Source: Roseinatronobacter sp. S2
GTDB taxonomy: Bacteria > Pseudomonadota > Alphaproteobacteria > Rhodobacterales > Rhodobacteraceae
DNA length: 64,000 nucleotides
Direction: 5' to 3'
Assembly: GCF_029581395.1 (NCBI RefSeq)
Contig: NZ_CP121113.1
Location: 2,352,001-2,416,000 of the forward strand
Below, piece after piece: positions 1 through 60,093 of this stretch. The notes under the pieces were generated by a model. That model was not told where the DNA came from. It saw only the letters and a list, made by a program, of their open reading frames with translations, and did no database searches. A program made the translations under genes and the position numbers. Within the stretch, counting starts at the first letter, position 1; each line of letters begins with the position of its first letter.

Positions 1-148
1 GGCCTGCCGATTTGGCCAGCGACACGCCAAGCGATTTAAGTAAGGGATATGCAGCTTGCATAAACTGCGCGTCTCAAATGCCGGACCGGCAGACCCCGGC
101 CCACCGTTGGTGCAGGCTTAGTCCCCGCGCGAATGTCCCCTTCAGGCC
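1..148 (+). repeat. MITE-like intergenic repeat, copy A (cut by window edge)
   Basis: This is the right part of a dispersed element that recurs six more times in the window. It contains the internal palindrome TATGCAGCTTGCATA (about 49-63), the right arm of the long inverted repeat (about 85-113) and the terminal sequence CTTCAGGCC near 140-148. The left end lies outside the window. It abuts the 3' side of the Sel1-repeat gene. Confidence 0.8.
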
Positions 149-1906: not shown

Positions 1907-2133
1907 GGCCTTTTGCGGACATCGGGAAAGCCCCAAGGCGCGGAGCAAAGGGCGCAGCCCGCCGCGCCATCGGTGGGCCGTCCCGCGGCCTGCCGATTTG
2001 GCTGATGGCTGGCCAAGCCTTTGAAGTAAGGATATGCAGCCTGCATAAACTGCATTCTTATAATGTCGGATCGGCAGACCCCGACCCACCACTGGCGCGG
2101 GCTTTATCCAAGCGCTAATGACCGCAAAAGGCC
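1907..2133 (+). repeat. MITE-like intergenic repeat, copy B (complete)
   Basis: This complete copy has perfect 12-bp terminal inverted repeats, GGCCTTTTGCGG at 1907-1918 and its complement at 2122-2133. Inside lies an imperfect long inverted repeat (1963-1996 against 2071-2099) enclosing a small hairpin TATGCAGCCTGCATA. It fills the gap between two co-directional genes, the only full copy with both flanks visible that is not between convergent genes. No clear target-site duplication is visible. Confidence 0.85.
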
Positions 2134-2237
2134 AGAATTCCCTCCCCTTGCAGCCCTCAAGCGCTTTCGGTCTTGCCCAGCACCGGTGCGAACTGGCACA
2201 AGCGGGCCATCCCTGCGCCCAGCGAAAGGTCCGGTTC

Positions 2238-4950: not shown

Positions 4951-5038
4951 GGTTTTGGGGCTGAAGCTGACACCCCAAGGCGCGGGATCAAGGGCGCGGG
5001 CTGTATCCAAGCGTGAATGACCGTAAAAGGCCAAAACC
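4951..5038 (+). repeat. MITE-like repeat, copy G (internal deletion derivative)
   Basis: Both ends of the family are present but the centre is missing. The left part reads CTGAAGCTGACACCCCAAGG and jumps to the right-end sequence GCGCGGGCTGTATCCAAGCG, followed by GACCGTAAAAGGCCA. Flanking GGTTTTGG (4951-4958) and CCAAAACC (5031-5038) are inverted repeats. The 88-bp remnant lies between the convergent PilZ and LysR genes. Confidence 0.7.
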
Positions 5039-19275: not shown

Positions 19276-19397
19276 GGCGCACGGACGGATCGGCGGGTCA
19301 TGCAGAACTGGCCAGCTTTGGCCTTTGCGCCGCGCCTTCGGCATATCCGACCGCTGCATCCCGTCAAATCCGCACGCACGACCTGATCAGCACATGT

Positions 19398-23445: not shown

Positions 23446-23464
23446 GCAAGCCCCATACGCCGAC

Positions 23465-23506
23465 ACAGGGCGCGCGGAGGGAGGAGCCGCGCGCCCTGTT
23501 TCATTT
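23465..23506 (+). terminator. Rho-independent terminator after mcd
   Basis: ACAGGGCGCGCGG (23465-23477) pairs perfectly with CCGCGCGCCCTGT (23487-23499) over 13 bases, followed by TTCATTT. Confidence 0.75.
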
Positions 23507-23519
23507 GCGGGCGCACGGT

Positions 23520-23750
23520 TTGGCCTGAAGCAGACATCTGGACTGCCCCAAGGCGCGGAGCAAAGGCCGAAGGCCGCCGCGCCATCGGCGGGCCGTCCCG
23601 CGGCCTGCCGATTTGGTCAGCGACACGCCAAGCCTTGGAAGTAAGGATATGCAGCTTGCATAAACTGCATTCCCATAATGTCGGATCGGCAGACCCCGGC
23701 CCACCGATGGCGCGGGCTTGGTTCCAATGCGAAGGGCAGCTTCAGGCCAA
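23520..23750 (+). repeat. MITE-like intergenic repeat, copy C (complete, best preserved)
   Basis: Terminal inverted repeats are perfect over 12 bases: TTGGCCTGAAGC at 23520-23531 and its complement at 23739-23750. Inside are a long inverted repeat (23578-23611 against 23686-23714) and the perfect palindrome TATGCAGCTTGCATA (23648-23662). The copy lies in the 564-bp gap between the convergent mcd and rmuC genes. In the remaining 259 bp (23751-24009) I see no gene. Confidence 0.88.
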
Positions 23751-24009
23751 CTTCAACCGGTTTGCACTGCCAGCCGGCAAGCAAAGCTGCAACAGCTGGG
23801 CCGGATAAATGATCTGGGGGATTTTATTCGTCACCTTGCCCCCCCCTGTTGCATGCGGCCGGATCGCCAGATCCCGACCGCGCGGGCATTCGGACAGCCG
23901 AACGCCTGCCGCGCATGTTGCGTAATGGTATGCCATCCGCCCCGCCCCCTGTCGTGTTCGCGGCACACCCAGCGTGACACGCAGGCGGTCCAATGGGGGC
24001 GCAGGTCTG

Positions 24010-36215: not shown

Positions 36216-36440
36216 AAGGCTGCCTTATGGGGACGTCGACATATACACCAAGCCCGCGCCATCGGTGGGCCTGGAACTGCCGATCCACCGTTATATGAAT
36301 ACAATTTATGCGGGCTGCATACTCCTGCGTTCAAAGGCTTGAACTGTCGTCTGGGTAATCGGCAGGCCGTGGGACGGCCCACCGATGGCGCGGCGGCCTT
36401 CGGCCTCGATTCCGCACCTTTGCGCGTCCCCTACAGGCCA
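36216..36440 (-). repeat. MITE-like intergenic repeat, copy D (inverted, one degraded end)
   Basis: The copy is in the reverse orientation. It keeps the long inverted repeat, including GCGCCATCGGTGGG near 36257 and CCCACCGATGGCGCG near 36378, and the right end CTACAGGCCA, but the left end is decayed. It lies in the 690-bp gap between the convergent SDHAF4-like and rpoH genes. In 35950-36215 and 36593-36639 I see no gene. Confidence 0.8.
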
Positions 36441-36490
36441 CACCCCCCGCAAGCGCGACGGTCTGTTCAGATCAGCCGCCACGACCCGCT

Positions 36491-36592
36491 AGAGCATATA
36501 ACGTTCATTCGCATTCACGAGTCATGCTCTAACTTATTGATTTCGCATGTTCGAGAAGCACAAAACCGGTTCCCACTTTTGAGCAACATGCT
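36491..36592 (+). repeat. 104-bp AGAGCAT intergenic repeat, copy 1
   Basis: This sequence is about 94 percent identical to 46663-46766. It starts AGAGCATATAACGTTC, contains ATGCTCT inverted repeats and the core AAAACCGGTTCCCACTTTT, and ends in AACATGCT. Similar cores are, as I recall, dispersed in other alphaproteobacterial genomes. It lies between copy D and the 3' end of rpoH. Confidence 0.85.
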
Positions 36593-46201: not shown

Positions 46202-46664
46202 TATATTTAAGAAAATAATGGGCGCCCTTAACCCTGACTCCGGGGCGCCCAAACCTGCGATACCCGATGGACGCCATGCCCTTGCCGCACTTCTGGTGCG
46301 TGCGGCCCGCGCAAGCGAGGTGTATGACGACCGCCAGATCGCGCAGATCGATGCAATTCTTGCACGCCGTTTCGACCTGCCCGTGCCAGATGCAGACAAA
46401 TTACGCCTGAGCGCCGCAGACTATGAACAACGCGCCGGTGACACTGTTCACCTGACCCGCGCCATCAAGGAGATCGTGCCGCTGGATGAACGCCCAAGCC
46501 TGCTGGAAGATCTGTGGTGCGTTATTCTGGCCGATGGTGGCAGGCATGAAAATGAAGACGGGTTAATGCGGCTTGTGTCCAACCTGCTTGGGTTGGCCGA
46601 CCGCGAGTCTGCATTTGCGCGCCAAAAGGTGATGGCGCGCAATGCTGGCATTCACACCGCTTAG
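46194..46664 (+). CDS. TerB-like (tellurite-resistance-type) helical protein
   Basis: The 156-residue, all-helical protein resembles the TerB/DUF533 family: DGRHALAALLVRAARAS, then RFDLPVPDADKLRLSAADYE and a C-terminal LWCVILADGGRHENEDGLM with acidic residues that can bind metal. Stand-alone TerB-like proteins are common in alphaproteobacteria and need not confer tellurite resistance. The start is a GTG at 46194 overlapping msrB; ATG 46218 is an alternative. Its TAG stop is shared with the first bases of the 104-bp repeat. Confidence 0.8.
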   Translation: MHNIFKKIMGALNPDSGAPKPAIPDGRHALAALLVRAARASEVYDDRQIAQIDAILARRFDLPVPDADKLRLSAADYEQRAGDTVHLTRAIKEIVPLDERPSLLEDLWCVILADGGRHENEDGLMRLVSNLLGLADRESAFARQKVMARNAGIHTA

Positions 46665-46766
46665 AGCATATCACGTTCATTCGCATTCACGAGACATGCT
46701 CTAACTTATTGATCTCGCATGTTCGAGAAGCTCAAAACCGGTTCCCACTTTTGAGCAACATGCTCT
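46663..46766 (+). repeat. 104-bp AGAGCAT intergenic repeat, copy 2
   Basis: The copy starts AGAGCATATCACGTTC and ends AACATGCTCT, with perfect AGAGCAT/ATGCTCT ends and the core AAAACCGGTTCCCACTTTT. It overlaps two bases of the TerB-like stop codon on the left and two bases of the glutamate dehydrogenase stop codon on the right, thus exactly filling the convergent gap. Confidence 0.9.
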
Positions 46767-49438: not shown

Positions 49439-49660
49439 TGGCCTGAAGATGACGTTTGCGCTTGGAGATAGCCCGCGCCATCGGTGGGCCGGGGTCTGCC
49501 GATCGACGTTATAGGAATGCAGTTTATGCAGGCTTCATACTCCCAAAATCACAAGCTTGGACTGCCATCAGCCAAATCGGCAGGCCGCGGGACGGCCAGA
49601 CCTATGGCGTGGGCCACCTTCGGCCTTTGCTCCGCGCCTTGGGGCATCCCCTTCAGGCGA
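49439..49660 (-). repeat. MITE-like intergenic repeat, copy E (inverted)
   Basis: The ends are TGGCCTGAAG (49439-49448) and CTTCAGGCGA (49651-49660), inverted repeats with one mismatch. The inner inverted repeat (GCGCCATCGGTGGG near 49476) and the TATGCAGGCTTCATA palindrome relic are present. It lies in the 393-bp gap between the convergent lipoprotein and permease genes; nothing else is seen in that gap. Confidence 0.85.
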
Positions 49661-59749: not shown

Positions 59750-59788
59750 GGCAATTCCGATCAATCGGGCCGGGCCGTTTGGGTAGTA

Positions 59789-60020
59789 TTGGCCTTTTGC
59801 TGCCCTTCACACTTGAACAAAGCCCGCGCCAGCGGTGGGCCGGGGTCTGCCGGTCCGACGCCAGTGAAGTTCACTTTATGCAGGCGGCATACTCCTGACT
59901 TCTAAGGATTGAATCACCATCAGCGAAATCGGCAGGCCGCGGGACGGCCCACCGATGGCGCGGCGGCCTGCGGCCTTGATTCCGCGCCTTGGGAAGCTCC
60001 CCAATGGCCGCTTCAGGCCA
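59789..60020 (-). repeat. MITE-like intergenic repeat, copy F (inverted, hybrid ends)
   Basis: The left end is of the TTGGCCTTTTGC type and the right end of the CTTCAGGCCA type, so the copy combines the two terminal variants of the family. The inner inverted repeat (GCGCCAGCGGTGGG and CCCACCGATGGCGCG) is intact. It lies in the 344-bp gap between the convergent DUF2244 and amidase genes. Confidence 0.85.
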
Positions 60021-60093
60021 GAAAATCCGAACGAAAGCACCATAGGTGCGGGACAAAACACTGTCGGACCTACCAAACAGCAAGCATCAAATC

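Follow-up and report, generated by a model that had tools for sequence, protein, structure and literature searches.

The window analysed here, that is, the whole stretch of 64,000 nt (C1:2352001-2416000 of Roseinatronobacter sp. S2, G000, below referred to as the own genome), carries at 23520-23750 a quasi-palindrome that a first-pass annotation had assigned to a MITE-like family with seven copies. We wondered what kind of element this is, how its copies come to resemble one another, and whether their position relative to genes is consistent with a role in the host.

The repeat family and its ends

The family was found at all seven positions first listed, and the description of a dispersed, MITE-sized family with terminal inverted repeats held up. 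The window contains five full-length copies: copy B (1907-2134, plus strand), in which both terminal repeats are of the GGCCTTTTGC type; copy D (23520-23750, plus strand), located in the convergent gap 23446-24009; copy E (36216-36440, minus strand), with degenerate terminal repeats and also in a convergent gap; copy F (49439-49660, minus strand); and copy G (59789-60020, minus strand), in the convergent gap 59750-60093. Copy A (1-148, plus strand) is truncated by the window boundary (in full it begins at C1:2351920), and copy C (4951-5038, plus strand), again in a convergent gap, is an internal-deletion form in which the core is gone and the ends are retained. A doubtful remnant at 19310-19341 (minus strand), likewise in a convergent gap, was called on the weak basis of a short resemblance to the 5' arm.

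For the genome as a whole, we used a covariance model covering the inner 147 nt of the element, with 150 of 4463 candidates scored. From the resulting 146 matches, 37 were removed as reverse-strand matches of the palindrome or ~50-nt deletion forms, which left 109 copies of this family of ~230 nt, 107 on contig C1 and two on C3. All are full length (107/109) except C1:800365 and C1:1789007, the mean core identity between copies is 0.838 (600 random pairs), and with copy D as the query the 40 own-genome matches that were scored, out of 152 candidates, all had E values of at most 2.6e-51. Folding z-scores were -5.57 on the plus strand and -5.33 on the minus strand. The earlier extrapolation to hundreds of copies per genome thus proved too high: with 107 copies per 3.48 Mb, C1 carries approximately one per 32 kb, and the 64-kb window is denser than average.

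Other repeats are present in the window as well. A 103-nt intergenic repeat, unrelated to the hairpin family, occurs at 36490-36592 and 46662-46764 (96% alike); one copy occupies a 100-nt convergent gap and the other lies in the gap of copy E. Full-length matches to it were located near further own-genome copies (L007, L170, L021, L026, and L188), and none was found in the named-genome loci from L260 on. A predicted gene, which perhaps encodes a repeat protein, contains four 48-nt direct repeats (561-908) with a spacing of 96-108 nt.

Read from left to right, copy D consists of a terminal repeat (TTGGCCTGAAGC, 23520-23531, plus strand), a small 5' hairpin (GGCC-GAA-GGCC, 23565-23575, plus strand), a long conserved stem whose 5' arm (23577-23612) and 3' arm (23684-23717, both plus strand) enclose a loop with a conserved ATAAA (23660-23664, plus strand; present in 106 of the 109 own copies), and a right terminal repeat (23739-23750, minus strand) that is the exact inverse of the left one. 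The 12-bp terminal inverted repeats described earlier are present, but they are degenerate across the family, with a strict pattern fitting both ends in 27/109 copies, one end in 39/109, and neither end in 43/109. Perfect repeats that differ between copies do exist (1907-2134 and 23520-23750), as does a copy with one repeat of each type (59789-60020), although the copy letters used in the first-pass annotation do not follow that annotation's own list. Among the 27 copies typed at both ends, eight were GAA/GAA, four were TTT/TTT, and 15 were mixed, so that the type at one end of a copy is independent of the type at the other. Together with the exchange between copies at shared sites that is described below, this bears out the suggestion of two subfamilies that recombine.

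The terminal repeats are also not the outer limits of the element. One or both of two motifs (M1 and M2) lie outside them in 46 of 109 copies, with scores above those of all reversed-sequence controls. An M1+M2 pair was present in 15 of the 17 copies typed at both ends (the other two were M2+M2, each with one low-scoring end), and the core direction between them was M2-core-M1 in nine cases and M1-core-M2 in six, or 24 versus 20 with single-end copies included. Because of this pairing and the nine-to-six split, we consider M1 and M2 a directed pair relative to which the direction of the core is not fixed. The possibility that they form a separate repeat hosting a nested core was rejected: nearly all M1/M2 matches flank a core, core remnants being kept at L044 and L046 and no core being seen at L053 (three mismatches), and the motifs were therefore taken as outer ends.

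Interiors are replaced at occupied sites

Copies in two related genomes were compared with the own-genome copies site by site; in the main aligned blocks, identity to the own genome is 93-96% for the sister genome G012 and 82-86% for G018. Consistently filled orthologous sites speak against a mobile family, and this is in part what was found, since 16 of the 20 G012 copies compared match both flanks of one own copy, two match one flank (one of these being reversed and at a contig end), and two match neither. At the 16 common sites the core has the same direction in nine cases and is reversed in seven. Each of the seven reversed cores is more similar to some other copy (identity 0.90-0.95) than to the ortholog (0.81-0.89), which takes ranks 13-97 among the 109 copies. 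Among the nine unreversed cores, five can clearly be recognised as orthologs, with identities of 0.925-0.993 and rank 1 or 2. The remaining four cannot (0.81-0.897, rank 11-70); for L224, whose flanks are only 88% identical, plain divergence may be the cause. The reversed sites have 14 junctions, of which 11 are located within the terminal repeat and three up to ~22 nt beyond it, and at L235 the site-specific variant repeat GGCGTATTGC was retained while the interior had changed. As these 16 sites show, the interior between the ~12-nt terminal repeats has been replaced, since the divergence of G012 and the own genome, by that of another copy, in either orientation, and the flanks, often with the terminal-repeat variant of the site itself, persist through the replacement. 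The exchange is not universal, because five of the 16 common sites keep the ortholog.

The 24 G018 copies compared comprise four at common sites with a reversed core (including the sites of copies D and E), three at common sites with the same direction, six with one matching flank, ten with none, and one mixed case. Six of the seven common G018 cores rank 30th or lower against the own core at the site and are not closest to the ortholog; the reversed core L251 ranks first (0.867, with flanks at 0.90-0.91). Outside this count, the aligned blocks of G018 place a reversed copy at site B, a copy in the same orientation at site G, and no copy at site F. A sequence profile detected no copy at sites D and E in the partly rearranged stretches of six other congeners, in which diverged copies could escape such a profile.

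In-place inversion of the core, in the style of phase variation and by recombination between the inverted ends, would fit the reversal of seven of 16 common G012 sites with most junctions in terminal repeats, and it would also fit L251, one of the four reversed G018 cores. However, none of the seven reversed G012 cores is the inverted ortholog, as their identities and ranks show, and the other three reversed G018 cores rank 30-59, which makes this explanation improbable overall, although L251 itself may be such an inversion.

A second concern is that repeats may have been misjoined during assembly. G012 is apparently a metagenome-assembled genome and G018 apparently a draft, both are fragmented, and some G012 contigs end inside copies, so that the orientation evidence comes in part from fragmented assemblies. 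Against this, the variant-repeat junction at L235 has, in our own reading, ~4 bases common to both alternatives, which is too few for joining by an assembler, and the own genome, with most copies on a 3.48-Mb contig, has the same mixture of core directions relative to M1 and M2, an observation that is independent of the G012 and G018 assemblies. We consider it very improbable that an assembly artefact explains the replacements.

Gain or loss of whole copies also occurs, since ten of the 24 G018 copies have no flank match and one site that is filled in G018 is empty in the own genome (window position ~29704). The first-pass annotation had suggested that such filled and empty sites be compared for target duplications; in the single pair that was read, no target duplication was seen and ~50 nt were replaced. 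One G018 locus (L247, G018:C54:280930-283480) holds two copies ~330 bp apart, the second with an extra insert inside the stem.

We also searched for the source of mobility. In the own genome, 59 end-like matches were found (0 and 1 in the controls), of which 50 fall at known copies. The nine stray matches, one of which (C1:2430197) has a copy 1.5 kb away, include no facing pair around a gene-sized insert, and apart from the ends of neighbouring window copies no facing pair that could delimit a parental transposon with the same ends surrounds a gene-sized insert. The only transposase family searched, Y1_Tnp, gave no match above the PF01797 cut-off in any of 11 genomes, in a search in which controls gave a signal in 5 of 14. 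The own genome has one fragmentary match at 22.6 bits (cut-off 23), with no listed copy within 180 kb. A REPIN/RAYT system was rejected on these grounds, with no Y1 match above the cut-off and one fragment just under it. The proposed mobilisation by related transposases likewise finds no support in anything we observed, be it the end pairs, the Y1_Tnp search of 11 genomes, or the one filled/empty site.

An ordinary MITE could nevertheless mimic replacement if a transposase acting in trans moved the core, so that new copies landed in or beside residents and old ones were lost. The terminal repeats, the size, and the dispersed copies are what such an element would have, and so are the G018 copy at a site that is empty in the own genome, the two G018 copy pairs (~240 and 330 bp apart), and the copies with internal deletions that occur both in the window and on C3. 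What tells against it is that replaced sites retain their own terminal-repeat variants and flanks, that no target duplication accompanies the one site read, that most end-like matches belong to known copies and the remaining nine frame no gene-sized insert, and that within the Y1 family searched only a fragment just below the cut-off was seen. Altogether, we regard this explanation as unlikely.

Gene ends and conserved pairing

All counts of gene context were based on gene calls from a crude codon-usage script rather than on an annotation. With these calls, 83 of the 109 own copies lie in convergent gaps, 22 between co-directional genes, two in divergent gaps, and two in gaps of undetermined type. 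Among all gaps in the window 10/55 are convergent, and among those free of elements or fragments 5/48; the difference between the latter and the 83/109 copies has p 2e-15. The same bias was observed in named genomes outside the genus, where 45 of 75 classified copies are in convergent gaps, whereas of the other gaps in these stretches 59 of 423 are convergent (p 3e-16), while divergent gaps hold 5/75 copies versus 89/423 other gaps; 30 further matches at edges or without a neighbour were left out of the 75. With same-genus records included, the convergent fractions are 51/85 and 63/469. In the set called A3 below, ten of the 20 distant loci lie in convergent gaps, and one or more gene 3' ends adjoin 18 of them. 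In convergent gaps, the median distance from the stop codon to the start of the terminal repeat is 42 nt.

A role as an intrinsic terminator was set aside for want of support, as few T-run terminators were found: of 166 convergent gene ends, 14 have one within the element and 18 before it, counted without a control run. The element lies near the ends of both genes, would fold alike in both orientations, and accompanies convergent ends that mostly have no T-run terminator; in our view, the most likely host role would be that of a putative symmetric hairpin at 3' ends, which would block read-through or exonucleases.

We determined whether the pairing is conserved using an alignment (A3) of 25 sequences, of which five come from the own genome, three from a congener, and 17 from the family outside the genus. 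In A3, 96.6% of the cells are paired versus 84.2% after shuffling, there are 76 two-sided cells versus 21 (neither value being reached in any of 500 shuffles), and 14 of 30 pairs have two-sided changes. When the partner was shifted by 1-3 columns, pairing fell to 32-51%. Since A3 is biased, its 20 distant rows having been found with a structural model, the count was repeated on A4, a set of 42 sequences thinned from 75 usable ones among 80 stretches that were selected by a one-sided 5' pattern alone. Here, 87.7% of the cells are paired versus 79.5% after shuffling (maximum of 300 shuffles 81.0%), with 71 two-sided cells versus 18.5 (maximum of 300 shuffles 29) and a two-sided change in 14 of 26 pairs, and this count includes at least six rows that by eye show the 5' hairpin only as well as six same-genus rows. 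ATAAA is present in 34 of the 42 A4 sequences. A structure for A4 taken from one minimum free energy fold was discarded in favour of the A3 stem, as it did not contain the long stem and had a pairing of 58.6% without any two-sided change, and the own-genome set A2, which has no two-sided change, was judged uninformative.

The stem is thus conserved across genera of the family with compensatory pair changes. Such changes could mean that pairing matters, or they could be produced by hairpin-templated DNA repair without selection on RNA, and they leave RNA and DNA undistinguished as the structured form. A vertically inherited structured RNA or terminator at gene 3' ends, with apparent replacement reflecting fast divergence of unpaired parts, would agree with the compensatory changes, with the convergent location, and with the five of 16 common G012 sites that are vertically conserved. 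It has little likelihood in our view, because reversed cores, and cores nearer to other copies than to the ortholog, are impossible by point divergence, and this contradiction would disappear only if the G012 orientation and core-identity results were assembly artefacts.

Regarding its range, the element was matched in 20 of 60 relatives, which correspond to 20 of the 36 genomes of the same genus (including the own genome) and leave 16 congeners without a match; none of the 24 relatives from other families of the class matched. A family-wide search gave matches in at least 61 of 296 genomes, many of them weak (with ten candidates scored per genome, negatives and copy numbers from this search are weak). 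In a class-wide search of 289 genomes at least five matched, namely the own genome, two further members of its family, and two genomes from other families with weak matches (26.9 and 25.7 bits); negatives and copy numbers are weak here too, as nine candidates were scored per genome. The exact 5' pattern is present in at least 119 stretches of named genomes, and the genera among the matches listed are Roseovarius, Sulfitobacter, Salipiger, Pseudaestuariivita, Ruegeria, Shimia, and Roseinatronobacter. By eye, the end inverted repeats in Rhodobacter sp. MO_188.B50 and Roseovarius sp. MMSF_3359 resemble those of the own genome. No Rfam family was accepted as the source of the element, as none explains it: at the gathering score, the window contains two tRNAs only, and among four matches of ten loci up to an E value of 1, only M23 in L158 (26.6 bits, gathering score 41.2) overlaps the element.

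In several other genera (loci L269, L273, L301, L310, L318, L319, and L333), the 5' arm is interrupted after ATCG, at approximately one and the same position, by an extra small palindrome, which looks as if hairpins insert into a hairpin. In the congener G010, there are many pieces of ~67 nt that resemble one arm only and perhaps belong to a related shorter family.

A proposed mechanism and comparison with known systems

We consider it probable that the family consists of long-lived, REP/MITE-like quasi-palindromes which stay at mostly fixed sites at gene 3' ends and whose interiors are exchanged regardless of orientation. The near identity of the element to its own inverse would allow an incoming copy to pair with a resident one via the terminal repeats in both orientations, and either orientation would be accepted because the ends are alike on both sides. 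The exchange itself may be gene-conversion-like recombination, or it may involve a transposase that acts on the ends of the resident. Repeated exchange would homogenise the family and randomise its orientation, and the host would tolerate or use the element as a symmetric hairpin that serves the 3' ends of the transcripts on both sides and acts alike in either orientation. Plain homologous recombination across ends of ~12 nt is a poor fit for the reversed exchanges. A more specific version, which we put forward tentatively and with considerable doubt, is that a dedicated recombination or transposition activity of Rhodobacterales recognises the resident terminal repeats and swaps the interiors, such that ~100 fixed convergent sites would act as exchangeable cassettes under concerted evolution and the symmetry of the hairpin would make orientation neutral. 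Being paired in many genera, mostly located between convergent genes, and without an Rfam model, the element would also offer a test bed for what happens where transcripts meet.

Among known repeats, CIR are inverted repeats, and GANTC is the usual methylation site of alphaproteobacteria. In the review PMC10969869, CIR are described as long intergenic repeats with GANTC methylation sites in Caulobacter and other alphaproteobacteria. By this description, to which the comparison is confined, our element is similar in being long, intergenic, and alphaproteobacterial, and GANTC is present in 42/109 own copies and absent from 67/109. In the window as a whole, GANTC is depleted, with 72 occurrences versus 189 expected by shuffling. 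The same review describes bacterial MITEs (ERIC, Correia, CIR, and others) as small, intergenic, and bounded by terminal inverted repeats (PMC10969869). The element shares all this in being short and intergenic with terminal inverted repeats, but differs in that no target duplication, parent, or transposase was found within our searches (one site, end pairs, and Y1, respectively), that its paired core is conserved across many genera of one family, and that it has a strong bias towards convergent genes. A literature search, for which subscription papers were largely out of reach, returned no publication on such an element in Rhodobacterales.

The element can also be compared with the REP, BIME, and REPIN sequences of Pseudomonas and enterobacteria. 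According to PMC3733652, REPs are high-copy extragenic palindromes located mainly between convergent or co-directional genes, and the title of a review cited there indicates that gene conversion was proposed for them long ago. The element resembles them as a high-copy extragenic palindrome at gene 3' ends. It is unlike them in the size of its unit, which is ~230 nt (~330 nt with the end motifs) compared to 20-40 nt for a REP with its GTAG/CGTC tag, in having its own terminal repeats and a conserved interior, and in the lack of a Y1 (RAYT-type) transposase above the cut-off in the 11 genomes. In addition, the replacement of interiors by those of other copies, in either orientation and at common sites, is documented here for the element. 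For REP sequences, it is an old debate whether dispersed bacterial repeats evolve through transposition or through gene conversion; in the present case, the aligned sites directly show that occupied sites undergo replacement, with the terminal repeats as its boundaries and in either orientation.
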